Assembly: GCA_025994075.1 (NCBI GenBank)
Contig: JAMQGV010000048.1
Coordinates: 126,001-190,000, forward strand
DNA: 64,000 bases
Direction of reading: 5' to 3'
Source of the DNA: Vicinamibacteria bacterium
Lineage (GTDB): Bacteria > Acidobacteriota > Vicinamibacteria > Fen-336
The notes below the pieces were generated by a model. It was not told the DNA's origin. It made no database searches and saw nothing but the letters and a program-made list of their open reading frames with translations. A program made the translations under genes and the position numbers. Of this stretch, positions 9,418 through 18,377 are shown piece by piece (position 1 is the stretch's first letter; every line of letters starts with the position of its first letter).

Positions 9418-9426
9418 AAATGCGAT

Positions 9427-9454
9427 CGGCCGGCGAGTTCGGGCTCGCCGGCCG
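9427..9454 (-). terminator. Displaced tRNA-Pro terminator hairpin
   Basis: A perfect 11-bp stem (CGGCCGGCGAG / CTCGCCGGCCG) with loop TTCGGG. On the minus strand it is followed by ATCGCATTTTC, a weak U-run. It lies 25 bp beyond the left att repeat, where the original tRNA-Pro(CGG) terminator would now be after integration. It can also end the SGNH transcript on the plus strand. Confidence 0.6.
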
Positions 9455-9479
9455 CGGCACGTCCACGTCAGGATGATGG

Positions 9480-9527
<48 letters not shown>

Positions 9528-9541
9528 GCCCAAAGGCCCCA

Positions 9542-9633
9542 TCAGGACACTTAAGGGCGCTTCACGACACCACGCGAAAAGGCTTGTCCCGCCCTTTATC
9601 TACGGGCTACAATGCGCCTTGATGTTGTCCTGA
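9542..9633 (+). promoter_or_regulatory. Integrase promoter flanked by TCAGGACA inverted repeats
   Basis: A -35-like TTGTCC (9584-9589) and a -10 TACAAT (9608-9613) are 18 bp apart upstream of the integrase. The octamer TCAGGACA (9542-9549) and its exact complement TGTCCTGA (9626-9633) flank this promoter, suggesting a regulator or recombination-directionality factor binds both sides. With the AlpA-like protein in the same element, autoregulated integration/excision is plausible. Confidence 0.5.
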
Positions 9634-9659
9634 CGTGTCTTGGGGTTCCCGCGCGGGTT

Positions 9660-9682
9660 TGCTCCCCCCGCGCTCCCCCTTA
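9660..9682 (+). repeat. Left copy of a 23-bp repeat near the element end
   Basis: A GCTCCCCC-rich 23-mer that matches 18221-18243 at 20 of 23 positions in the same orientation. One copy lies inside each end of the island, as expected for arm-type integrase sites. The role is inferred from position. Confidence 0.5.
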
Positions 9683-9715
9683 GCGCGCCAAGAGTGAAGA
9701 GGTAGGAGGTACACG

Positions 9716-11152
9716 GTGCCCGAGCTGCTCGACGACAAGCTGATCAAGAAGCTCGAGCCGGGGCCGGAGCGGTACGAGGTGACGGACGCCGACGAGCCGG
9801 GCCTTCGGCTGCGGGTCTACCCCAACGGGACGCGCGCGTGGTCCTACTGGTATCGCACGAAGGCCGGCGCCGCTCGCCGCGTGAAGCTCGGCATCTACCC
9901 CGCTTTGACTCTCGCGAAGGCGAGGAAGAAGGCCCGCAGCTACTCCGTGCAGGTCGACGACGGGGCCGACCCGTCCGCGGAGACGAAGGCATCCCGCCAG
10001 GCGTTCAAGGCACGCAAGACCGCGACGACCTTTGCCGACCTGTGCCGCGCCTACGTCGACGAGGAGTTGCCGCAGATGCGGCCGGCGACTCGGCGCGGCT
10101 GGCAGCGCTTCGTCGACGTCGAGATCATTCCGGCGCTCGGCAAGCTCCTACCGGCCGAGGTGACCTCGGAACACGTCGCGGACCTCAAGGACAAGATCGC
10201 CCGCGGCGTGTCGGGGCCGCCCGCGGCGGACGGCTCCCCCACCTGGAAACGCGTACCGGCGCCGACCTCCGCGCGCCGCTGCTACGAGGTCCTGCGCCGC
10301 ATCCTCGAGTGGGCTTCGGCCGTTGACCCGGATGTGCACGCGGCCCGGAGGCGCCACGGTATCGAGCGGCTCGCCCTGAACCCCGCGGCGAGCGCGAAGG
10401 GCTACCGCTCACGGCGAAAGGCGCGGGGCCGCTCGAGGGCCGAGGCCGCGCGCAAGGCGTACACCGACGACCAGCTCAAGGCCGTGTTCGTCGCGGCCGG
10501 CGCCGCCGTCGAGGCCGCTGCGCAGAAGGCCGCGGAACGGAACGCCGAGCTGGCCGCCCGGCGCGGCCGGAAGCTTGGGCCCGACTACCGCGAAGTCGCC
10601 GCGCGCCAATACGCGAACCTCTTCGCCCTGATCGCGCACACCGGCGTGCGAGCGCACGACGCGCAGGCCGCCCGATGGGAGGACGTCGACACGGCCCGGA
10701 AGCTCTGGACCATCCACACGCACAAGGTGTCCGACCTGACCGGCGCCGCTCACCTGGTGCCGCTCTCGTCGGGCGCGCTCGCGGTGCTCGAGGAAATCCA
10801 GCGCGCGAACGAAGCCGCGGAGCGGGCCGGCTCGCCCTGGGTGTTCCCTGCCGATACGACCCGCTGCGATACCTGCGAGCGCGCCGGCCACGCGGACAAG
10901 GACTCCGCGCACGCCGCGAAGATCAAGGCCGCTGCCGGCATCGACGGGCGCGGGCTGCTCCATCGGCTGCGCGACACGATCAAGACCCGCATGTCAGAAC
11001 ACGGCATCGACGGCCGCGTGAGCGAGGCTGTGCTGGGCCACGTTCCGCCCGGCATCGTGGGCGTGTACGACCACGCCGAGCTCTTGCCGCAGCGGCGGGC
11101 CGCGCTCGAGTGGTGGTCTGGCGAGCTGGCGCGCATCAGGGCCGCGCGATGA
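9716..11152 (+). CDS. int: Tyrosine site-specific integrase
   Basis: 478 residues from a GTG start behind the Shine-Dalgarno AGGAGGT. Residues 1-85 resemble the DUF4102 arm-binding domain of P4/prophage-type integrases (GLRLRVYPNGTRAWSYWYRT). A SAM-like core-binding domain follows at about 100-200. The catalytic domain shows Arg312 (TGVRAHDA), His416-x-x-Arg419 (HRLRD), His442 (LGH) and the nucleophile Tyr451 (VYDH). It is adjacent to the left att repeat and should catalyse integration into tRNA-Pro(CGG). The domain carries inserted alanine-rich segments, so it is longer than P4 integrase. Its stop overlaps the next gene (ATGA). Confidence 0.95.
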   Translation: MPELLDDKLIKKLEPGPERYEVTDADEPGLRLRVYPNGTRAWSYWYRTKAGAARRVKLGIYPALTLAKARKKARSYSVQVDDGADPSAETKASRQAFKARKTATTFADLCRAYVDEELPQMRPATRRGWQRFVDVEIIPALGKLLPAEVTSEHVADLKDKIARGVSGPPAADGSPTWKRVPAPTSARRCYEVLRRILEWASAVDPDVHAARRRHGIERLALNPAASAKGYRSRRKARGRSRAEAARKAYTDDQLKAVFVAAGAAVEAAAQKAAERNAELAARRGRKLGPDYREVAARQYANLFALIAHTGVRAHDAQAARWEDVDTARKLWTIHTHKVSDLTGAAHLVPLSSGALAVLEEIQRANEAAERAGSPWVFPADTTRCDTCERAGHADKDSAHAAKIKAAAGIDGRGLLHRLRDTIKTRMSEHGIDGRVSEAVLGHVPPGIVGVYDHAELLPQRRAALEWWSGELARIRAAR

Positions 11153-11748
11153 CGCCGCGGTGGTGGGAGCCGTGGAAGTACGACTCGCTCGAGGAGCAGT
11201 TCGAGGCTTGCAACTCGATTCAGGCGCGCCAGTGGTACCACGCCCGCATGGCGCACGACCTCGGCCAGGCGAACGCGCCTCTGCTCGTTGCGCTCGCCGA
11301 GCGCGGCATCCTCTGGAGTGAGCTGTGGGACCTCTCGCGGCCGTTCCTGTTCTGGCCCCTGTCGCTCCGCGAAGCGCTCGGCCAGAAGCTCTCCGGGCTC
11401 GAGGCGACGATCGAAGCTCGCACGCGCTGGAAGCAGGATGCGACCCGCGACGCCGAGGAGGCCTCGCGCACGCGCCGCGACCTTGAAGCGCTTCCGCGCT
11501 CGGCCTACGTGGGCCAGCCGGAGCGCCTCACCGACCACGCGGCCGCGCTGCTCGCCGTGGTCGCGCCGAAGTGTATGCCCGAGCGGCAGCGCGGCCGGCG
11601 ATGGCCCATCGGCGACGGTGGCCAGCGCTACAACGCCGAGGCGCTGCGGATCGTGGCCGCGGTCCTGGCCAACTGGTACGACCCCGCACCGACGCCGCAG
11701 TCCATCAAAGCGAGGCTGCAGGCGCGCGCTCGCCGGCCGCGTCAATGA
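11149..11748 (+). CDS. Hypothetical protein of the island, coupled to integrase
   Basis: 199 residues. The ATG overlaps the integrase stop (ATGA), so the start is well supported. The protein is rich in Trp, Arg and Ala, starts MTPRWWEPWKYDSLEEQFEA and has no signal peptide or membrane segment; a mid-region of about residues 80-130 looks like an amphipathic helix. I do not recognise a family. Translational coupling to integrase suggests a role in recombination control or in early element functions. Confidence 0.75.
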   Translation: MTPRWWEPWKYDSLEEQFEACNSIQARQWYHARMAHDLGQANAPLLVALAERGILWSELWDLSRPFLFWPLSLREALGQKLSGLEATIEARTRWKQDATRDAEEASRTRRDLEALPRSAYVGQPERLTDHAAALLAVVAPKCMPERQRGRRWPIGDGGQRYNAEALRIVAAVLANWYDPAPTPQSIKARLQARARRPRQ

Positions 11749-11864
11749 GTATCTCGGCGGCCCACAGAACCCCCTCAAGATACACATCGCCAGTCGTCGC
11801 GTAGTCGTCGATTCTCCGGTCAGCACGCCGCGTCATGCGGCGCCACGACCCGGAGGACGACGCG

Positions 11865-12107
11865 ATGGACGAGAGACTCATCAGGCGCAAGGAGGCGGCC
11901 GAGATGCTCGGCTGCTCCGTGTCGACGCTCGAGCGTCTGGCCGCGCGGGGCGAGGTGCCGGCGCCGCGGCGCCTGTCGCGCGGTCGCTGCGGCTGGCTGG
12001 CATCGGAACTGGCGGCCCACCTGCGCGCGCTCCCTGTCGGCCTGCTCTCCGAGCGGACGGCCGCGGCTCGGGCCAGCCGTCGCGCCGACACCGAGGCCCG
12101 GGGGTGA
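11865..12107 (+). CDS. AlpA-like helix-turn-helix regulator/excisionase
   Basis: 80 residues from the ATG at 11865, chosen because CGGAGGACG lies 8-15 bases upstream; a longer open frame begins at 11835. The N-terminal segment IRRKEAAEMLGCSVSTLERLAARGEVPAPRRL is the winged helix-turn-helix of the AlpA/MerR-like (HTH_17) family, followed by WLASELAAHLRA. AlpA-type proteins of P4-like satellites act as activators of the integrase or as excisionases. The C-terminus is alanine/arginine-rich. A GTATCT/AGATAC inverted repeat at 11749-11783 lies in its upstream region. Confidence 0.85.
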   Translation: MDERLIRRKEAAEMLGCSVSTLERLAARGEVPAPRRLSRGRCGWLASELAAHLRALPVGLLSERTAAARASRRADTEARG

Positions 12108-12147
12108 CACCCGAGGAGGCCGCGCACGTCGCGGCCGGAGCGCGCCG

Positions 12148-12513
12148 GTGAGCTACCTCCCGTTGGACCGCGACCTGCTCACGTCGTCGACGTGGGCGAC
12201 CGGGACCCCGGCGCAGATCAAGGTCTGGATCTACCTGCTACTGCAGGCCGACCCGCGGTCCGGGATCGTGGAGGACGCCGCGCCAGCGATCGCGCTTCGT
12301 TGCGGCTTGTCGCTGGCGGAGGTCGAGGGCGCGCTCGATTGGCTCGCCGCGCCGGACCCGCACTCGCGCACCAAGGACCACGATGGGCGCCGGATCGCAA
12401 TGGGACCGGACGGCATCCTGATCCTGAACTACCTCGCCCGCGCCAAGAAGGACCACAGCACCGAGCGCGTGCGCCGGTTCCGGGCTCGCCGGGCCGACGG
12501 GCCGAAACGATGA
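12148..12513 (+). CDS. Phage replication-associated winged-helix protein
   Basis: 121 residues from a GTG start. The layout resembles phage replisome-organiser N-domains: an N-terminal LTSSTWATGTPAQIKVWIYL segment, a central helix-turn-helix (IALRCGLSLAEVEGALDWLA), then DPHSRTKDHDGRRI and ILNYLARAKKDHSTERVRRF. In phages such domains precede or accompany replication initiators. The protein is short and has no helicase or primase part, so it may recruit host or helper replication proteins. The assignment is from pattern memory and is moderate. The ATGAAACG cluster lies at its 3' end. Confidence 0.65.
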   Translation: MSYLPLDRDLLTSSTWATGTPAQIKVWIYLLLQADPRSGIVEDAAPAIALRCGLSLAEVEGALDWLAAPDPHSRTKDHDGRRIAMGPDGILILNYLARAKKDHSTERVRRFRARRADGPKR

Positions 12514-12541
12514 AACGCCGTTTCATGCGTTTCATGAAACG
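12510..12541. promoter_or_regulatory. Four-copy ATGAAACG palindromic cluster
   Basis: The octamer ATGAAACG occurs at 12510-12517 and 12534-12541, and its complement CGTTTCAT at 12519-12526 and 12528-12535, within 32 bp. The first pair forms a perfect TGAAACG-C-CGTTTCA palindrome and the last pair overlaps as GTTTCATGAAAC. Such dense symmetrical sites are typical of operators or replication iterons. The AT content is unusual for this genome. Confidence 0.6.
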
Positions 12542-12704
12542 GCCGGAACGACGAACAAGAACAAGAACACGGACACACGGAACGAAATGCGAGAACAGCG
12601 ACGAGAGCAGGAACGATAGATGCGCGGAGCGTGCGCTCCGCAACCCTGACGACGAGCACCGAGCCCGAGCGCTCGCCCCGCACACACCGAGGCTGATCCC
12701 ATGA
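12510..12704 (+). CDS. Small Arg/Thr-rich ORF with overlaps at both ends
   Basis: 64 codons. The ATG overlaps the stop of the preceding gene (ATGA) and its own stop overlaps the next ATG (ATGA), the same coupling used by genuine genes in this island. The predicted protein starts MKRRFMRFMKRPERR, then has RTRTRTRT, and is very basic. It coincides with the ATGAAACG cluster, so the frame may be a by-product of a regulatory repeat. A nucleic-acid-binding peptide is possible; no family is recognised. Confidence 0.4.
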   Translation: MKRRFMRFMKRPERRTRTRTRTHGTKCENSDESRNDRCAERALRNPDDEHRARALAPHTPRLIP

Positions 12705-13372
12705 CCCACGCAGAGACCGAGACGCTCGAGCGCGCCGACGGTAGTTCCTGTGCAAATCGACAGGCAGTAACACTCGAGCGCGACCCCAAGCTCTGGTGGT
12801 TGCTGCTGGCCAGGGGGCGCGACCTGGACCTGCGGGTCCGCGCGCGTACCGGCACCGGGAACTGGCGGTTCACCTGTCCTGTTGATTCCGCGCACGAGGT
12901 GACGCTCGTCAACGGCGTGCTGCCGCTGCCGCATCGCCCGCAAGGGCTCGCCCTCACCTGCCACGGGCCGGCCGGCCACGACTCGCCCGGTCACTCGCTC
13001 TCGACGCACCAGCGCGCCCGCGCTGGCCAGGCGATCGACATGCACCCGGACCTCGGCGAGATCCCCTATCCGTGCCGGTTCTGCGGCTGCGCGGAGAGCA
13101 TGGTGCTCGCCGCGCTCGGCGCTCGGCCGCGGGACAAGTACCGCCAGGACGAACGCCAGCGCGACGGCCGGTGCTCGAGGTGCGGGGCGAGTGGCTACCG
13201 CGTCGGAGGACGAGGCGGCGTGCTGTGTCTCGTCCACCTGGCCGACCGCGAGGCGCTGCGCGCCGTGGTGTTCGGCGACCCCCGGGGGGTGTCCGATCTC
13301 GGGAGAGGGGGGCTGGACCACCGAGGTGGGGCCTGGGCGTTCTCCCGCCGGAAATTGGCGCGCGCCTGGTGA
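12701..13372 (+). CDS. Zinc-finger-like hypothetical protein
   Basis: 223 residues. The ATG overlaps the preceding stop (ATGA). The central and C-terminal parts contain clustered cysteines and histidines (LTCHGPAGH, PCRFCGC, RCSRCGASGYRV, VLCLVH), suggesting one or two zinc ribbons. The middle CRFCGC and CSRCG pairs are the best candidates for a metal site. No catalytic motif is visible. Location between the replication-like gene and the TerS-like gene suggests DNA- or RNA-binding, but this is inference. Confidence 0.7.
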   Translation: MTHAETETLERADGSSCANRQAVTLERDPKLWWLLLARGRDLDLRVRARTGTGNWRFTCPVDSAHEVTLVNGVLPLPHRPQGLALTCHGPAGHDSPGHSLSTHQRARAGQAIDMHPDLGEIPYPCRFCGCAESMVLAALGARPRDKYRQDERQRDGRCSRCGASGYRVGGRGGVLCLVHLADREALRAVVFGDPRGVSDLGRGGLDHRGGAWAFSRRKLARAW

Positions 13373-13379
13373 CCTCCTG

Positions 13380-13733
13380 ATGCGCGGCCGGCCACCGAAG
13401 GACCCGGCCCTGCGGCGCGGCCACGGCGCGGCCAGGACGGCCCCAGCGCTCGAGCTGTCCGGGGCCACGCTGGTGGGCGATCGTCGCCCTGAGCTGCCGC
13501 GGCGCGCCCGGGCGTGGCACCCGCAGACGCTCGCGTGGTGGGACGACCTCTGGTCATCGCCGATGGCGCAGCGCTTCCTGGAAGTCGACGTCCATGCGCT
13601 CTACATCGTCGCCGAGCTGATGGACCTGTTCTGGATCGGGCCGAGCCCGCGCCTGTCGGCCGAGCTGCGCCGCTGGTACGTGCAGTTCGGGCTCGAGGTG
13701 TTCTCGCGGCGCCGGCTGGGGGGTGGGGCGTGA
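13380..13733 (+). CDS. Phage terminase small-subunit-like protein
   Basis: 117 residues from the ATG at 13380. The N-terminus MRGRPPKDPALRRGHG is the basic AT-hook-like start common to small terminase proteins. The central LAWWDDLWSSPMAQRFLEVDVHALYIVAELMD and the end FGLEVFSRRRLGG match the pattern of P27/actinophage-type TerS proteins. TerS recognises the pac/cos site and hands DNA to the large ATPase. No large subunit is present in the island, so packaging would need a helper's motor. Encoding only the small subunit is how many satellites redirect packaging. Confidence 0.72.
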   Translation: MRGRPPKDPALRRGHGAARTAPALELSGATLVGDRRPELPRRARAWHPQTLAWWDDLWSSPMAQRFLEVDVHALYIVAELMDLFWIGPSPRLSAELRRWYVQFGLEVFSRRRLGGGA

Positions 13734-13808
13734 CCATTGGGCGGCGCGAATCGCCATTACTGCAAGTACCCCATTGACCGATTAGCTACTGAGGCGGAGA
13801 GTGTGTCC

Positions 13809-14003
13809 ATGACGGAGCGAGACGCGGTGTCGACTACGATCCTGATCCCCCGGCGGGTCTGGCAGCTCCTGCGGGGCCTGGCCGAGCAGCGGGCGCTCGC
13901 ACGTGGTGGCCGAGCCTCGGCGTCGCGGGTCCTGGTCGAGCTGGTCGAGGCCGAAGCCGCGCGCCGCGAGGCCGCGAGCGCTGAGGCGCCCCCCCGTGAC
14001 TGA
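13809..14003 (+). CDS. Ribbon-helix-helix-like regulator
   Basis: 64 residues from the ATG at 13809; the open frame extends back to 13737 but the upstream part is not protein-like. The segment VSTTILIPRRVWQLLRGLAEQRA followed by SASRVLVELVEAEAARREA fits an Arc/CopG ribbon-helix-helix fold: a short beta-strand, then two helices. Such proteins repress promoters in phages and plasmids. The 75-base upstream gap is locally richer in A and T, so it may hold its own promoter. The gene overlaps the next GTG by 8 bases. Confidence 0.65.
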   Translation: MTERDAVSTTILIPRRVWQLLRGLAEQRALARGGRASASRVLVELVEAEAARREAASAEAPPRD

Positions 14004-14469
14004 CCGCGCCCTGGCCGCGACCGAGGTGCGGGCCCGCCTGCTGGCCGCACTCGACCCGCTCGCCCGCGGCGTCTGCCGGTCGCGCGGTGTGGCGCTCGAG
14101 GACGTGCGGCTGCTGGTCCGCGCGCACCCGCGGGCCGGCGAGCGGCCGGGCTCTGGCGCTCGCGTGGTGGTGCTCGTGGACGAGGGCCCGGGGCGGCCCT
14201 ACGCCGAAGTCGTGACGGAGGGGCTCGTGCGCGACCTGCCCGACGCTCCGGCCGCCGAAGCCGCCATCCGCGATGCGCTCGCGCTCGCCCTGGCTGCGCT
14301 GGGGCCGGAGGCGGCGGAGGACGCTGCGGTGGCGTGCGAGCGCGGAGCGACGCTCGGGCTCGTCGTGCGGCCCGCGGCCGGCGAGGTGGTGGCCGTGCTG
14401 GTGCCGGCGGCTGGCACGTCGCGCCCGCTGGTGCTGGGTGTGCTGCGAGACGCGGCGAGGGCCGCGTAA
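13996..14469 (+). CDS. Hypothetical protein upstream of capsid
   Basis: 157 residues from the GTG at 13996, which overlaps the end of the preceding gene by 8 bases. The sequence is Ala/Val-rich and strongly acidic in places (GARVVVLVDEGPGRPYAEVVTE), with a predicted alternation of beta-strands and helices and no membrane segment. I do not recognise a family. Its position directly before the capsid gene is where a head-assembly or scaffold accessory is often found, but no motif supports a specific role. Confidence 0.7.
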   Translation: MTDRALAATEVRARLLAALDPLARGVCRSRGVALEDVRLLVRAHPRAGERPGSGARVVVLVDEGPGRPYAEVVTEGLVRDLPDAPAAEAAIRDALALALAALGPEAAEDAAVACERGATLGLVVRPAAGEVVAVLVPAAGTSRPLVLGVLRDAARAA

Positions 14470-14704
14470 GGCATGGACCCGCGCGCGATAACCGGAGGCG
14501 CCATCCTGGCTCCCGTCGTCTCCGGCCCGGCCGCGCGAAATGGGTCGACCTGCGGGCCGGGGGTGCTGGGGCGGCACTCCCCGGCTCGCGGGGTGACGTG
14601 CCGTACCCGCGCGCGCCGAGTCGTGCGCGCGGCTCGTCGGTCGGCGGGGCGCATGCCTCGCCCGTCGGCGCTCACGTAGGCAACCGACGCGATCGAGGAG
14701 AAAA
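14470..14704 (+). other. Capsid upstream region with doubtful small ORF
   Basis: 235 bases between the hypothetical gene and the capsid gene. It holds an open frame of 68 codons (14473-14679) starting ATG, but the translation is Arg/Gly-rich and degenerate and I could not support it as protein. The end carries GAGGAG (14694-14699) six bases before the capsid ATG, a strong ribosome-binding site. The rest is GC-rich with short hairpins and may be an untranslated leader. Confidence 0.4.
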
Positions 14705-16192
14705 ATGGACCGAATCAACGAATTCAAGCAGGCGGCGATCGAGGCGCGCGAGTCTGTGCGCGAGGCGGAGCGCGCGCACGCCGCGGCGTGCGACAAGCAC
14801 GAGGACATCCGCTCGCGCTACTCGCTCGCGCTCCAGCGGCAGGCGCGCGGCGCCGCCGTCGACACCGACGAGACCGGCCGGCTCCAGTCCGACATCGACG
14901 CGGCCTCAGTCGCCGTGCAGTCGGCGCGGCGCGCGGTCGAGCGCGCCAAGGAGACGCTCGCCGCGGCCGAGCGCGACCGCGACGCGGAGCAGGCCCGGCT
15001 CGACGCCGAGGACGCCGAGCTGCTGCGCAACCCGTCGGGCCGCGTCCCGGGCACCCGAAGCTCGTCGTCCGTGTCCGTCGGCGCCGCCGGCGTCGGGTCG
15101 GCGCTCGCGGCGCTGCCGATGCCCGCTCGCGCGCGGGCCGCGATCTCCAAGCTCTACGGTGGCGCGACCGCGAGCCCCGAGGCGCGCGAGGAGTCGTGGC
15201 GCGGCGTCGTCGCTGCGGCGCTCGGCGGCTCGCCGATGCACCCCGCGGTCATGGCCGCGACCGCGACCGAGGGGAGCAACCCGCTCGGCGGGTTCAGCGT
15301 CGTGCCCGAGGTGGCGTCCGAGATCTTCATGCGCGCGGCCGAAGAGTCCGTGTTCGTGCGAATCGGCGCGAGCGTCGTGCCGATGATCTCCGACGAGCGC
15401 GTCGTGCCGGCGCTCGACGACGACGACGAGACCGACGACGCCGAGGCGACGCTGCAGGCCGAGTGGAAGCCCGAGGCGAGCGAGGCCGACGCGCAGTTGG
15501 TCAAGCTGCGCCAGGCGCGGCTCAAGGCCGCGAAGCTGCTGGTCCTGGCGGCGGCGTCGAACGAGCTGGGCGAGGACGCGCCGCACTACATCATGGCGCT
15601 CGAGGCCGCGATCTCGCGCGCCATCGGCCGCAAGTTCGACAAGGCCGTTCTGTCGGGCACCGGCGTCGGCATGCCCGCGGGCATCCTGCACTCCGCGGCG
15701 ACCATCACGGTCAGCAAGGAGGGTGGCCAGGGCGCGAGCACCTTCAAGTGGGAAAACGCGGTCGGCATGTGGGCGAAGCTCGCGCCTGGCTCGCATGAGC
15801 GCGCGTGGTGGCTGATGCATCCGACGGTGCTCCCGCAGGCGCTCTCGATGTCGCTCGCCATCGGCAACGCGGGGACGCAGCCGCGCGGCGTCTTCGAGGC
15901 CGGCGGCCCGACGGGCTACCAGCTCCTCGGCCGGCCGGTGCTCATCACCTCGCGCCTGAAGCCGCTCGGGACGAAGGGCGACGTGATCCTGCTCGACCCG
16001 TCGCAGGTCGTGATCGGCATCCGCCGCGGTCTCTCGATCGAGCGCAGCCCGCACGTGTTCTTCAGCTCCGATCGTCTCGCTATCCGCGGCCGGTTCCGCG
16101 GCGACGCGGCGACGTTCTGGGACGCGCCGCGGACCCTGGCCGACAGCGGCGGCACCGTGTCGCCCTTCGTCGTGCTCGAGGCGCGCGCGTAA
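14705..16192 (+). CDS. HK97-fold phage major capsid protein
   Basis: 495 residues with a strong Shine-Dalgarno. Residues 5-105 are a charged coiled coil (scaffold/delta-like domain), about 110-125 a Ser-rich linker, and about 190-490 the HK97-type shell domain, recognisable from NPLGGFSVVPEVASEIF, ISRAIGRKFDKAVLSGTG and the C-terminal IGIRRGLSIERSP. The delta domain normally directs assembly and is cut off by a prohead protease. No protease or portal gene is found in the island, so either helper proteins act on it or the N-domain is retained. It is the largest gene of the element and the clearest phage structural gene. Confidence 0.93.
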   Translation: MDRINEFKQAAIEARESVREAERAHAAACDKHEDIRSRYSLALQRQARGAAVDTDETGRLQSDIDAASVAVQSARRAVERAKETLAAAERDRDAEQARLDAEDAELLRNPSGRVPGTRSSSSVSVGAAGVGSALAALPMPARARAAISKLYGGATASPEAREESWRGVVAAALGGSPMHPAVMAATATEGSNPLGGFSVVPEVASEIFMRAAEESVFVRIGASVVPMISDERVVPALDDDDETDDAEATLQAEWKPEASEADAQLVKLRQARLKAAKLLVLAAASNELGEDAPHYIMALEAAISRAIGRKFDKAVLSGTGVGMPAGILHSAATITVSKEGGQGASTFKWENAVGMWAKLAPGSHERAWWLMHPTVLPQALSMSLAIGNAGTQPRGVFEAGGPTGYQLLGRPVLITSRLKPLGTKGDVILLDPSQVVIGIRRGLSIERSPHVFFSSDRLAIRGRFRGDAATFWDAPRTLADSGGTVSPFVVLEARA

Positions 16193-16206
16193 TTCGGCCC
16201 CGCGGC

Positions 16207-16398
16207 GTGGCGCTGGCGCCCCCCCGGCGCCTCGCCGCTCCCCTTCCGGCCGGCGACGTCGAGGCCTCGGCGTCGCGGCTGCTCGAGAAGGTGTCGCAGC
16301 TCGACGACGCGGCCGAGCTGCGGGCCGCGCTCGTCGAAGTGGGCGCTCGCGTGCTCGTGCATCCGCTGGCCGCGATGCTCGACGGCGTCGCCGAGTAG
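16207..16398 (+). CDS. Small protein following the capsid gene
   Basis: 63 codons from a GTG 14 bases after the capsid stop. The product is amphipathic (ASASRLLEKVSQLDDAAELRAALVEVGARV) and helical. Small genes at this place can encode decoration or head-completion proteins, but I recognise no family. Start choice is uncertain because no clear ribosome-binding site is visible. Confidence 0.5.
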   Translation: MALAPPRRLAAPLPAGDVEASASRLLEKVSQLDDAAELRAALVEVGARVLVHPLAAMLDGVAE

Positions 16399-16429
16399 TC
16401 GCCCTACCGTGGCACCCGAGGATGCGAGA

Positions 16430-16627
16430 ATGCCGGCCGTGACGATCAAGCGGGTACGCGTGACGGCCTGGGCCTGCGAATGCGCCCGCTGCGGCCACGC
16501 GTGGAAGTCGCTCGAGGCCGAGGCCCCGACCCGCTGCCCGCGCTGCAAGACCCGGGGCTTCTCCGCGGCGCCGCGCTGGCGGCGGCCCGATCGCACCTCC
16601 CGCGCCCTCGCCAAGAAGAACAAGTAG
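16430..16627 (+). CDS. Small zinc-ribbon protein
   Basis: 65 residues from ATG 16430, chosen because GAGGA lies eight bases upstream; a GTG at 16409 is possible. Two CxxC pairs (CARCGHAWKS and RCPRCKTRGF) form a zinc ribbon, and the C-terminus is basic (RPDRTSRALAKKNK). Many phages and satellites encode such proteins as transcription regulators or nucleic-acid-binding factors; the precise role here is not known. Confidence 0.7.
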   Translation: MPAVTIKRVRVTAWACECARCGHAWKSLEAEAPTRCPRCKTRGFSAAPRWRRPDRTSRALAKKNK

Positions 16628-16635
16628 CCTCCCGC

Positions 16636-16700
16636 GTGGCTTGACGCGGCATCCCTGCGGGTGTAGCGTCCGACCTCAGTAAGCCACCGTAGTGGCTTGA
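16636..16700 (+). promoter_or_regulatory. Promoter with GTGGCTTGA operator repeats
   Basis: The -35 TTGACG (16641-16646) and -10 TAGCGT (16664-16669) are separated by exactly 17 bp. The nonamer GTGGCTTGA occurs at 16636-16644, overlapping the -35 box, and at 16692-16700. The inverted copy AAGCCAC at 16681-16687 forms a perfect hairpin with GTGGCTT. The layout suggests a repressible promoter for the four-gene module that follows. Confidence 0.65.
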
Positions 16701-16710
16701 GGGAGGGACC

Positions 16711-16944
16711 ATGAAGAAGAGCAGGAGCGACGGGCGGATCATGCTGCCGGTCACGCGGGGCGAACTGCTGGCGTTCGCGGCCCGGTGTCGCGAGCTGGCC
16801 GCAGAGCTAGGCGCCGCGATCAAGGCCTCGAAGGCCAGCGCCCGCACGGAGGCCAGGACGCGGGCGAAGGCGCAGCGCGAAGTCGCGGCGATCAAGGCGA
16901 GCGTCACGCGCGCGCGCAAGGTCGCGAAGGGACTGCCGCGGTGA
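16711..16944 (+). CDS. Small basic coiled-coil protein, first gene of late module
   Basis: 77 residues with the ribosome-binding site GAGGGAGGGACC before the ATG. After MKKSRSDGRIMLPVTRGELLAF the protein is a long basic alpha-helix (ELGAAIKASKASARTEARTR...), predicted coiled coil. It is the first of four genes joined by GTGA/ATGA overlaps and driven by the promoter at 16641-16669. No family recognised; a DNA- or capsid-associated role is only suggested by charge. Confidence 0.65.
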   Translation: MKKSRSDGRIMLPVTRGELLAFAARCRELAAELGAAIKASKASARTEARTRAKAQREVAAIKASVTRARKVAKGLPR

Positions 16945-17204
16945 GCGCCCTCCCGGCGTACCACCTGGCCGACGAGCCGGACTGCGATTGCCTGCTCCTC
17001 GAGGAGCACCTCGAGCGCTGCCCGGGCGTGCCGGCGCCGCCCCTGCCGAACGAGGTGCCCGTCGTCACCTACGGCGCGGTGTACCGCGCCCGCCAGCACC
17101 GGCCGCGCATCGACCCGCCGGCCGAGCGCAAGCCGGGGCCGGTCCTGCGCGCGCACGACTACCCGCGGGCCAAGGCCCGCGCCGAAGGGAGGACGACGCG
17201 ATGA
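16941..17204 (+). CDS. Hypothetical protein of late module
   Basis: 87 residues from a GTG that overlaps the preceding stop (GTGA). The N-terminal part has two cysteine-rich spots (DEPDCDCLLLEEHLERCPG) that may bind metal, followed by a proline-rich middle and a basic C-terminus. The overlap on both sides supports real translation. Function unknown. Confidence 0.6.
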   Translation: MSALPAYHLADEPDCDCLLLEEHLERCPGVPAPPLPNEVPVVTYGAVYRARQHRPRIDPPAERKPGPVLRAHDYPRAKARAEGRTTR

Positions 17205-17839
17205 AGGCCGAGAACCCGGTTATCGCGCTGTTCCGCAAAGTGGCGGCGACCTACGACCCGGACAAGGACCCCTTCGACAGCGGCAGCGCGCGCACCTTCG
17301 TGTGGCGAGCGCAGGACCTCCTCGGCAGCCGAACCGGGCCCGAGCTGGCGCGACGAGCGCAGCGCCCGCGCGTCGTGCTCCCGGCCGCCTGGCGGCGACG
17401 GCTGCGCCAGGCCCACAGGATGCCCGCCGCGTGGGAAGCCCTGCGGCGCGAGGTGCTCGACCTCCGGCGCGTCGTCGACGCGGCATGGGGGGCCGCCACC
17501 ACAGCGCGGAAGTGGAGCCGGGCCGCCGCTCTCGACGAGCGGCTCGAGGCGCTCGAGGAACAGCTCGAGGCGGCGGCGTGGGACTGGTACAGCGACCGAG
17601 GCGATACGGAGCGTGCGGGCTCGCCCCACCCCTGCGAAGGCGACCTCCGGGCGCGTGACCTTTCGGCGGCCGAGTCCGCCCTGCGCTCGCTCCTGCGGGA
17701 CGTCGACTCGGAACCTCCGCACGATGCGAGCGGGCTCGAGGACGAGGACAACGCCGGCCTGGACCGCTGGGAGGCACACCTCGAAGGCATCGCCGAGGCC
17801 CGAGAGCAGCTCGAGCGCGTGATCGAGGTCCTCCCGTGA
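17201..17839 (+). CDS. Hypothetical helical protein of late module
   Basis: 212 residues from an ATG overlapping the preceding stop (ATGA). The N-terminus is basic; the centre is alpha-helical with a heptad-like segment (AALDERLEALEEQLEAAAWDW), and the C-terminal part is acidic. It has no membrane segment or enzyme motif. It is the largest product of the four-gene module and might be a structural or host-interaction protein; I do not recognise it. Confidence 0.65.
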   Translation: MKAENPVIALFRKVAATYDPDKDPFDSGSARTFVWRAQDLLGSRTGPELARRAQRPRVVLPAAWRRRLRQAHRMPAAWEALRREVLDLRRVVDAAWGAATTARKWSRAAALDERLEALEEQLEAAAWDWYSDRGDTERAGSPHPCEGDLRARDLSAAESALRSLLRDVDSEPPHDASGLEDEDNAGLDRWEAHLEGIAEAREQLERVIEVLP

Positions 17840-18150
17840 CGGCGCCGTCGACGAAGGCCCGGGAGGCCGCGCTCCGCCGCGAGGTGGTCGCGGTCGCCAA
17901 GATGCTCCGCGCCGCGGCTGGCCGCATGGAGCGGCTCGAGGCCCGCGCCCGCGAGGCCTCCGCGCTCGACCCGCTGCCCGAGGGTGACCCGCGGGCCTGG
18001 ACGTTTGCTGAGGAGGTGGTCGGGGCGAGCGAGGGCGGCTGTCTCGCCCACGTGCGCGACGCGGCCCGGGTCTACCTGGCCACGGCGAGGACCACGGATC
18101 GGGACCTCGCGCGAATGAAGGTCGAGCGGGACGCAGTCGAAGGGGTGTAG
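17836..18150 (+). CDS. Hypothetical helical protein, last gene of the island
   Basis: 104 residues from a GTG overlapping the previous stop (GTGA). It is alpha-helical and Ala/Arg/Glu-rich, with a coiled-coil start (EAALRREVVAVAKMLRAAAGRMERLEAR). A terminator-like hairpin follows 18 bases downstream, closing the module. Function unknown. Confidence 0.62.
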   Translation: MTAPSTKAREAALRREVVAVAKMLRAAAGRMERLEARAREASALDPLPEGDPRAWTFAEEVVGASEGGCLAHVRDAARVYLATARTTDRDLARMKVERDAVEGV

Positions 18151-18168
18151 CGGGTCTGCAGTCCTACC

Positions 18169-18195
18169 GGGCCGGGGGCCGCACGCTCCCGGCCC
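18169..18195 (+). terminator. Terminator at the end of the island's late module
   Basis: GGGCCGGG (18169-18176) pairs with CCCGGCCC (18188-18195) over an 11-nt loop and is followed by TTCGTGTTTCT. It stands 18 bases after the last stop codon, in plus orientation. Confidence 0.7.
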
Positions 18196-18220
18196 TTCGT
18201 GTTTCTGGGGGGTGATCCCC

Positions 18221-18243
18221 TGCTCCCCCCTTGCTCCCCCTAA
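18221..18243 (+). repeat. Right copy of the 23-bp repeat near the element end
   Basis: Matches 9660-9682 at 20 of 23 positions, in the same orientation, about 55 bp inside the right att repeat. A candidate arm-type integrase binding site. Confidence 0.5.
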
Positions 18244-18250
18244 TGCGAAA

Positions 18251-18277
18251 CGGCCGGCGATTCGGGATCGCCGGCCG
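18251..18277 (-). terminator. Element-borne copy of the tRNA-Pro terminator
   Basis: Perfect 11-bp stem (CGGCCGGCGAT / ATCGCCGGCCG) with loop TCGGG, followed on the minus strand by TTTCGCATT. It is 22 bp beyond the CCA end of tRNA-Pro(CGG). Stem, loop and the flanking AATGCGA are near-identical to the hairpin at 9427-9454 on the other side of the island. Confidence 0.7.
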
Positions 18278-18298
18278 CCTGTAAGTTACTGATAATAA

Positions 18299-18377
<79 letters not shown>

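Follow-up and report, generated by a model that had tools for sequence, protein, structure and literature searches.

This locus raises the question of what four small genes without a convincing match to a known family contribute to an integrated element, and whether the repeated short sites in front of them govern their expression. The original prediction for the 64-kb stretch of DNA analysed here (64,000 nucleotides, hereafter the window) had described them as a repressible, self-contained module at the end of the island, of the kind in which satellites commonly store genes for anti-phage defence or helper interference. The bounds and recognisable genes of the island are as follows.

9480-18346: host island, running from attL (9480-9527) to attR (18299-18346), as defined by a 48-bp exact direct repeat
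9716-11152, + strand: tyrosine integrase (Pfam Phage_integrase, Arm-DNA-bind_3)
11835-12107, + strand: AlpA/excisionase-like HTH protein, candidate regulator (Pfam HTH_17, Phage_AlpA; PHROG 66)
13380-13733, + strand: TerS-like protein (Pfam PF25673 Terminase_7, E 1.9e-16)
14705-16192, + strand: HK97-type major capsid protein, MCP (PF05065, E 4.2e-34; TIGR01554)
16430-16627, + strand: zr, a small zinc-ribbon protein and the last conserved gene upstream of the cassette (nine homologs)

The island is ~8.9 kb long, carries all of its called genes on the + strand and is inserted at the 3' end of a tRNA-Pro(cgg) gene on the minus strand (18300-18377), which is overlapped by the attR repeat; the 48-bp repeat corresponds to the 3' part of this tRNA. 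In common with satellites it is small, att-bounded and equipped with an integrase, and its recognised virion genes form an incomplete set (TerS-like protein and MCP). Among the scanned island ORFs none was recognisable as a terminase large subunit, a portal or a tail gene (distant versions could escape such a scan), no protease was found in the window's island, and the island proteins gave no match to a primase or pri-rep family. With this gene content, including the AlpA-like HTH protein, the island is plausibly satellite-like. The protein at 13380-13733 is labelled terminase small subunit by Pfam (PF25673) and minor tail protein by PHROGs (phrog_226), and since these labels conflict one of them must be wrong. 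An island ORF of 121 aa is similar to the N-terminal part of a 251-aa protein from another island and is directly followed, at 12510-12543, by a perfect 11-bp inverted repeat (GCCGTTTCATG-CGTTT-CATGAAACGGC), which is overlapped by additional GTTTCAT/ATGAAAC copies and is a candidate replication origin or operator. Two G+C-rich hairpins that are 73% identical, one outside attL (9419-9455) and one just inside attR (18242-18278), are possibly the old and the island-borne terminators of the tRNA-Pro gene. In zr, for which an alternative GTG start lies at 16409, the W, C, R and P columns are invariant across the nine homologs; its alignment is too variable for use as a search query, and zr served as the landmark for finding related islands.

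The module itself occupies the stretch between zr and the tRNA.

16636-16644, + strand: first GTGGCTTGA site, an exact match overlapping the -35 element and lying in a block kept in the sister islands
16641-16669, + strand: promoter-like TTGACG-17-TAGCGT (-35 at 16641-16646, -10 at 16664-16669), identical in two sister islands
16681-16698, + strand: palindrome AAGCCAC-CGTA-GTGGCTT, made of the inverted AAGCCAC at 16681 and the GTGGCTTGA at 16692-16700; putative operator or mRNA 5' hairpin
16711-16944, + strand: m1, 77 aa, very basic (pI 11.7), helical
16941-17204, + strand: m2, 87 aa, with a CxC-x5-H-x3-C motif
17201-17839, + strand: m3, 212 aa, helical, the swapped gene
17836-18150, + strand: m4, 104 aa, predicted three-helix protein, the conserved last gene
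18169-18195, + strand: Rho-independent-type terminator hairpin (-26.1 kcal/mol, z = -3.5)

The predicted linkage of the four genes was borne out, as m1/m2 overlap by GTGA at 16941, m2/m3 by ATGA at 17201 and m3/m4 by GTGA at 17836, and a codon-usage gene caller trained on other genes of the window selects the identical four starts. The closing terminator that had been proposed is also present, just beyond the 16636-18150 interval, and its hairpin is identical in both sister islands. At the level of sequence the four small genes are thus confirmed as real and as a single operon, which has a control region of its own and lies where the island meets tRNA-Pro.

The promoter-like sequence was found where it had been predicted. 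It matches the sigma-70 consensus at 8/12 positions and was left unflagged by a consensus scan, so its support comes from conservation and not from its match to the consensus. The three sites claimed for the control region are likewise there, as two direct, exact copies of GTGGCTTGA (16636 and 16692) and one inverted AAGCCAC (16681), with no further copies of GTGGCTT/AAGCCAC elsewhere in the 8.9-kb island. Across the 64-kb window, GTGGCTTGA with one mismatch was found 8 times against 9 expected; because the motif is not enriched window-wide, the evidence for the sites lies in their clustering. A hairpin with 7-bp arms together with a third copy arose in 0/4000 dinucleotide shuffles of the 85-bp region, and the hairpin by itself has a p of ~0.04 in such shuffles. 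When at most one mismatch is allowed, the 4.5-Mb genome contains a single copy of the palindrome and G012, a genome of the same genus, contains two, in all cases within these islands. This confinement to one island family suggests that a regulator, if one exists, is probably encoded on the island or specific to this family. The description of the module as self-contained and placed at the island end held up, and its control region is specific to the family. A host-wide regulon for GTGGCTTGA was rejected on the same counts, the palindrome occurring once in the genome and the one-mismatch motif being unenriched in the window. The exact 18-mer of the palindrome (AAGCCACCGTAGTGGCTT) also occurs in 13 IMG/VR contigs (L086-L098), nearly all at one conserved place. 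An operator common to known viruses was rejected as well, since in 12/13 cases the 18-mer is a stem with A/T-rich flanks and T-rich sequence after it, as intrinsic terminators have, in contigs of 43-50% GC. We have taken the viral occurrences as an unrelated coincidence, and the 29-bp promoter core had no match in the viral contigs.

Two sister islands were found in G012, split over contigs: C130 and C131 cover the stretch from capsid to cassette, C28 and C50 that from m4 to attR, and C69 and C74 the attL end with the integrase. The C74/C50 island has 51-bp attL/attR repeats at tRNA-Ala(cgc) and the C69/C28 island has 45-bp repeats at tRNA-Lys(ttt); the assembly breaks in the m4 stretch common to both islands, and C130 and C131 are not assigned to individual ends. 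The sister integrases are 24-31% identical to that of the window and, as expected with differing integrases, the short repeats beside the att sites also differ between the islands (TGCTCCCCC in the window, TTACCCC at tRNA-Lys and GCCACCCC at tRNA-Ala). Between the capsid gene and a 63-70-aa ORF that precedes zr, the sisters hold one to three extra small ORFs (one of 66 aa in each sister and, in C130, another of 156 aa); in the window (16192-16210) this stretch is absent and the 63-aa ORF upstream of zr is shortened at its start.

Comparison of the three islands shows a fixed frame around an exchanged interior. The control block (16625-16701) is identical between the window and C130 at 76/77 bases and between the window and C131 at 77/79, while zr before it has ~70% DNA identity in both sisters and m1 after it 65% DNA identity in C131. 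The m1 and m2 proteins are 97% identical in C130 and, in C131, 57% and 70% identical (m2 over the part that aligns). At the position of m3, both G012 islands have an unrelated gene of 92 and 99 aa, followed by m4, so that the swapped cassettes that the original prediction proposed looking for at this place in relatives do exist. The replacement gene and m3 have in common only their last ~14 residues (EAREQLER.IEV.P); the three-way DNA alignment is gapped over the m3 region, and identity there was not taken from it. Behind the swapped gene, m4 is 97% and 94% identical in C28 and C50, and past the terminator the sister sequences are unrelated up to the tRNA, and at tRNA-Pro, -Lys and -Ala alike m4 and the terminator stop ~100-150 bp short of the tRNA repeat. 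The capsid is 88% identical in C131, where m1-m2 have diverged, and 39% identical in C130, where m1-m2 are near-identical; as these identities run in opposite directions, the cassette recombines independently of the capsid gene. The turnover of m3 in both sisters between a fixed front block and a fixed m4-terminator end therefore describes an accessory cassette that can be exchanged while the frame for its expression is conserved. Judged by this comparison, which covers a close family of three islands, two of which come from the fragmented contigs of a single genome (G012), the operon is accessory cargo whose two ends are constant and whose interior can be exchanged. A paralogous relation among m1, m4 and the replacement gene had been suggested by eye and was rejected, since only weak, composition-driven scores were obtained in shuffled alignments.

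More distant relatives retain parts of this arrangement. The window's own genome has a 16-kb island (G000:C18), att-bounded by a 47-bp repeat at tRNA-Phe, in which the order is zr, TTGACA-18-TATGCT, a 175-aa unassigned gene, an m3 homolog (46% identity over 186 aa), an m2 homolog and an integrase. This C18 island (L003 8173 to L011 4254) also encodes a terminase large subunit, a tape-measure-like protein, an AAA-type protein and an AlpA-like HTH. On G000:C17, near tRNA-Ala, zr is followed by an m4-like, frameshifted gene (L033 2047-2418), which would make this the third island of that genome, lost in part; next to the m4-like gene lies another short gene of zinc-ribbon-like type (2454-2663). 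Outside this genus the genes behind zr are unrelated and in several cases lie near a tRNA, and in the G004 island near tRNA-Pro(cgg) a TTGACA and an ATTTGCC/GGCAAAT palindrome precede HTH genes. G004:C31 (L030 1-14964), from another genus, encodes an integrase, an AlpA-like protein, a prohead protease and a zr upstream of the TTGACA promoter; its palindrome has 8-bp arms (p 0.0025), and besides the HTH genes there is a weak PIN-domain match beside the tRNA. That zr is generally followed by a palindrome was rejected, as in comparison with shuffled sequence the G004 and G016 islands are the only unusual ones. Among 193 genomes of the class, m2 and convincing m3 are confined to this genus; m3 matches in other genomes of the class (E ~1e-3) and DNA matches of 20-80 bp were set aside as chance similarity of helical or GC-rich sequence.

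The original prediction could assign none of the proteins, in agreement with our searches, and they are not recognisable as head or tail components. No convincing family match for m1-m4 was obtained in Pfam, PHROGs, NCBIfam or PADLOC, and the profile searches gave no head or tail (structural) family match. In PADLOC the best E-values for m3 were 0.0045 and 0.049, from partial, coiled-coil-type matches that we treated as chance, with none for m1, m2 and m4, so the module contains no match to a known defence system. The scanned viral and genome contigs gave no confirmed relatives of m2, m3 and m4, the phage collection gave nothing for m3 or the module DNA, and sequence searches of the PDB gave nothing convincing. 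In m2 the CxC-x5-H-x3-C motif is invariant in four homologs and is a possible metal site. The AlphaFold model of m4 is helical (pLDDT 72.6) and had no match below E 0.97 in a viral fold search, and the structure model of m3, also helical, has a pLDDT of 54.6, which is too low for fold search use. The dN/dS of m1 is ~1, whereas the capsid compared in the same pair has 0.36, and values of 0.54 and 0.37 were obtained for m3 (window-C18) and the replacement gene, respectively, all of them rough values in a GC-rich, codon-biased genome. We argue from these that selection acts on the proteins encoded by m3 and the replacement gene, and that m1 is fast-changing. The four appear to represent new protein families, confined to this genus as far as found.

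Taken together, our data suggest that the module is probably the accessory operon next to the attachment site in a family of satellite-like islands integrated at tRNA genes. One promoter, with GTGGCTTGA-type sites over and after it, would drive four translationally coupled genes as far as the terminator, and the control block in front and m4 with the terminator behind form the fixed frame. The interior genes, m3 above all, would be exchanged by recombination between islands with differing integrases and attachment sites. The sites are most likely bound by an island-specific regulator that would set expression when the island is integrated or on phage entry, and the products most likely target competing or helper phages, or the host. 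The operon structure, the fixed frame, the replacement of m3 and the island specificity of the sites are seen directly in the sequences, whereas activity of the promoter and use of the sites by a DNA-binding regulator are inferred. As a best guess from position, turnover and divergence, anti-phage action or helper interference by the m1-m4 products is a tentative proposal, somewhat less probable than not. It would go further still, and we consider it unlikely, to see in the invariant promoter/operator and the m4-terminator a dedicated recombination and expression site that swaps unrelated anti-phage or helper-interference genes, with all four families new. Against the accessory-cargo explanation stand the 8/12 match of the promoter, the small number of islands (three) and the lack of a match to an anti-phage family.

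That m1-m4 lie downstream of the capsid gene in the same orientation, that no terminator was detected between it and them, that read-through from upstream is possible and that m1, m3 and m4 are predicted to be helical would also suit late morphogenesis genes, that is scaffold, size-determination, head-completion or packaging helpers for the upstream capsid. We regard this as improbable, since the four genes have their own conserved promoter-like block and match no head or tail family, m1-m2 are 97% identical in C130 beside a capsid that is 39% identical, and the C18 island has m2 and m3 while all capsid homologs found in that genome sit elsewhere. A decaying prophage remnant, in which the module has no present function, could be read from the small size of the island (8.9 kb), in which a terminase large subunit, a portal and tail genes were not recognised, from the loss or shortening in the window of the sisters' small ORFs between mcp and zr, and from the frameshift in the m4 homolog of G000:C17. 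The reading frames are however intact in three islands, m3 and the replacement gene have dN/dS values of 0.54 and 0.37, the control block is conserved, the integrase frame and att repeats are intact and islands of the family occupy three different tRNAs, all of which makes decay very unlikely.

Two further alternatives concern the control block. The palindrome may act as a 5' hairpin of the mRNA, affecting transcript stability or translation of m1 with no repression by a DNA-binding protein: it lies at ~+5 to +22 of the predicted transcription start, directly before the Shine-Dalgarno sequence, its RNA fold has an energy of -12.6 kcal/mol (z -2.0), the sole change between islands (G to A) sits in the loop, and the identical 18-mer acts as a terminator-like stem in the unrelated viral contigs. 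A transcript hairpin would leave unexplained the third half-site, which overlaps the -35 element outside the transcript, and the conservation of the entire 77-bp block beyond the stem. The half-site at the -35 and the invariance of the whole block favour the reading as a DNA operator, and the mRNA hairpin is in our view a credible but rather unlikely alternative. The near-identity of the block might instead arise because it anchors recombination, or because islands exchanged it recently, and not from regulatory selection, given that breakpoints fall at or near it, with zr near-identical between C130 and C131 up to the block and m1 divergent beyond, and that the window and C130 have m1-m2 in common after it. 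A recent exchange should have brought the flanks along, whereas identity between the window and C131 drops sharply on both sides of ~75 bp, and this explanation too appears improbable. The accessory operon with island-specific control is the preferred reading.

That satellites commonly store such genes in this position agrees with the literature, in which accessory or anti-phage genes are kept near an end of the element, at the 3' ends of PICIs (PMC6092414), between psu and int in P4 (PMC9122126) and between prim and fis in PICMIs (PMC10803314). Because published satellites keep such genes at comparable places, the position, turnover and fast change of the module fit cargo acting on phages, a helper or the host. 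As seen in the P4 psu-int hotspot (PMC9122126), the module is a small, high-turnover locus near the satellite end and between conserved genes (~1-5 kb in P4, 1.5 kb here), in both cases with many proteins of no assigned function. The flanks of the P4 locus are the genes psu and int, whereas here they are the promoter/operator block and the last gene with its terminator; the scanned island proteins gave no match to the Psu family, so no psu was recognised beside the locus, and no known defence protein was matched. The prim-fis region of PICMIs (PMC10803314), proposed as a defence hotspot there, is similarly a short accessory region of high turnover beside the integration site, but PICMIs carry int, alpA and primase at fis and no capsid remodelling genes, whereas the island has a tRNA-Pro site, a capsid gene and no recognised primase family; the site and the missing primase match place it outside the PICMIs. 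With PICIs (PMC6092414) the island shares an integrase at one end, an AlpA-like regulator, a TerS-like protein and accessory genes at the 3' end, and it differs in having no pri-rep match, no recognised interference gene and an MCP gene. With capsid-forming PICIs (cfPICIs, described in PMC11389934) the likeness extends to satellite size, an own capsid gene and no recognised tail genes; of the capsid and packaging genes that mark a cfPICI, only those for the TerS-like protein and MCP were recognised here, and no terminase large subunit, portal or protease was found. By analogy, the architecture of the cassette resembles known satellite cargo loci, of which it would be a variant, and its proteins appear to be new.

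The variable cargo loci of satellites are a productive source of new anti-phage systems, and the orphan middle genes found here are compact, testable candidates for interference with a helper or other phages. As the DNA is conserved on both sides, new genomes can be screened directly for the control block. Near-identical control DNA amid diverged genes raises the question of which regulator or recombination process maintains the block in this island family.
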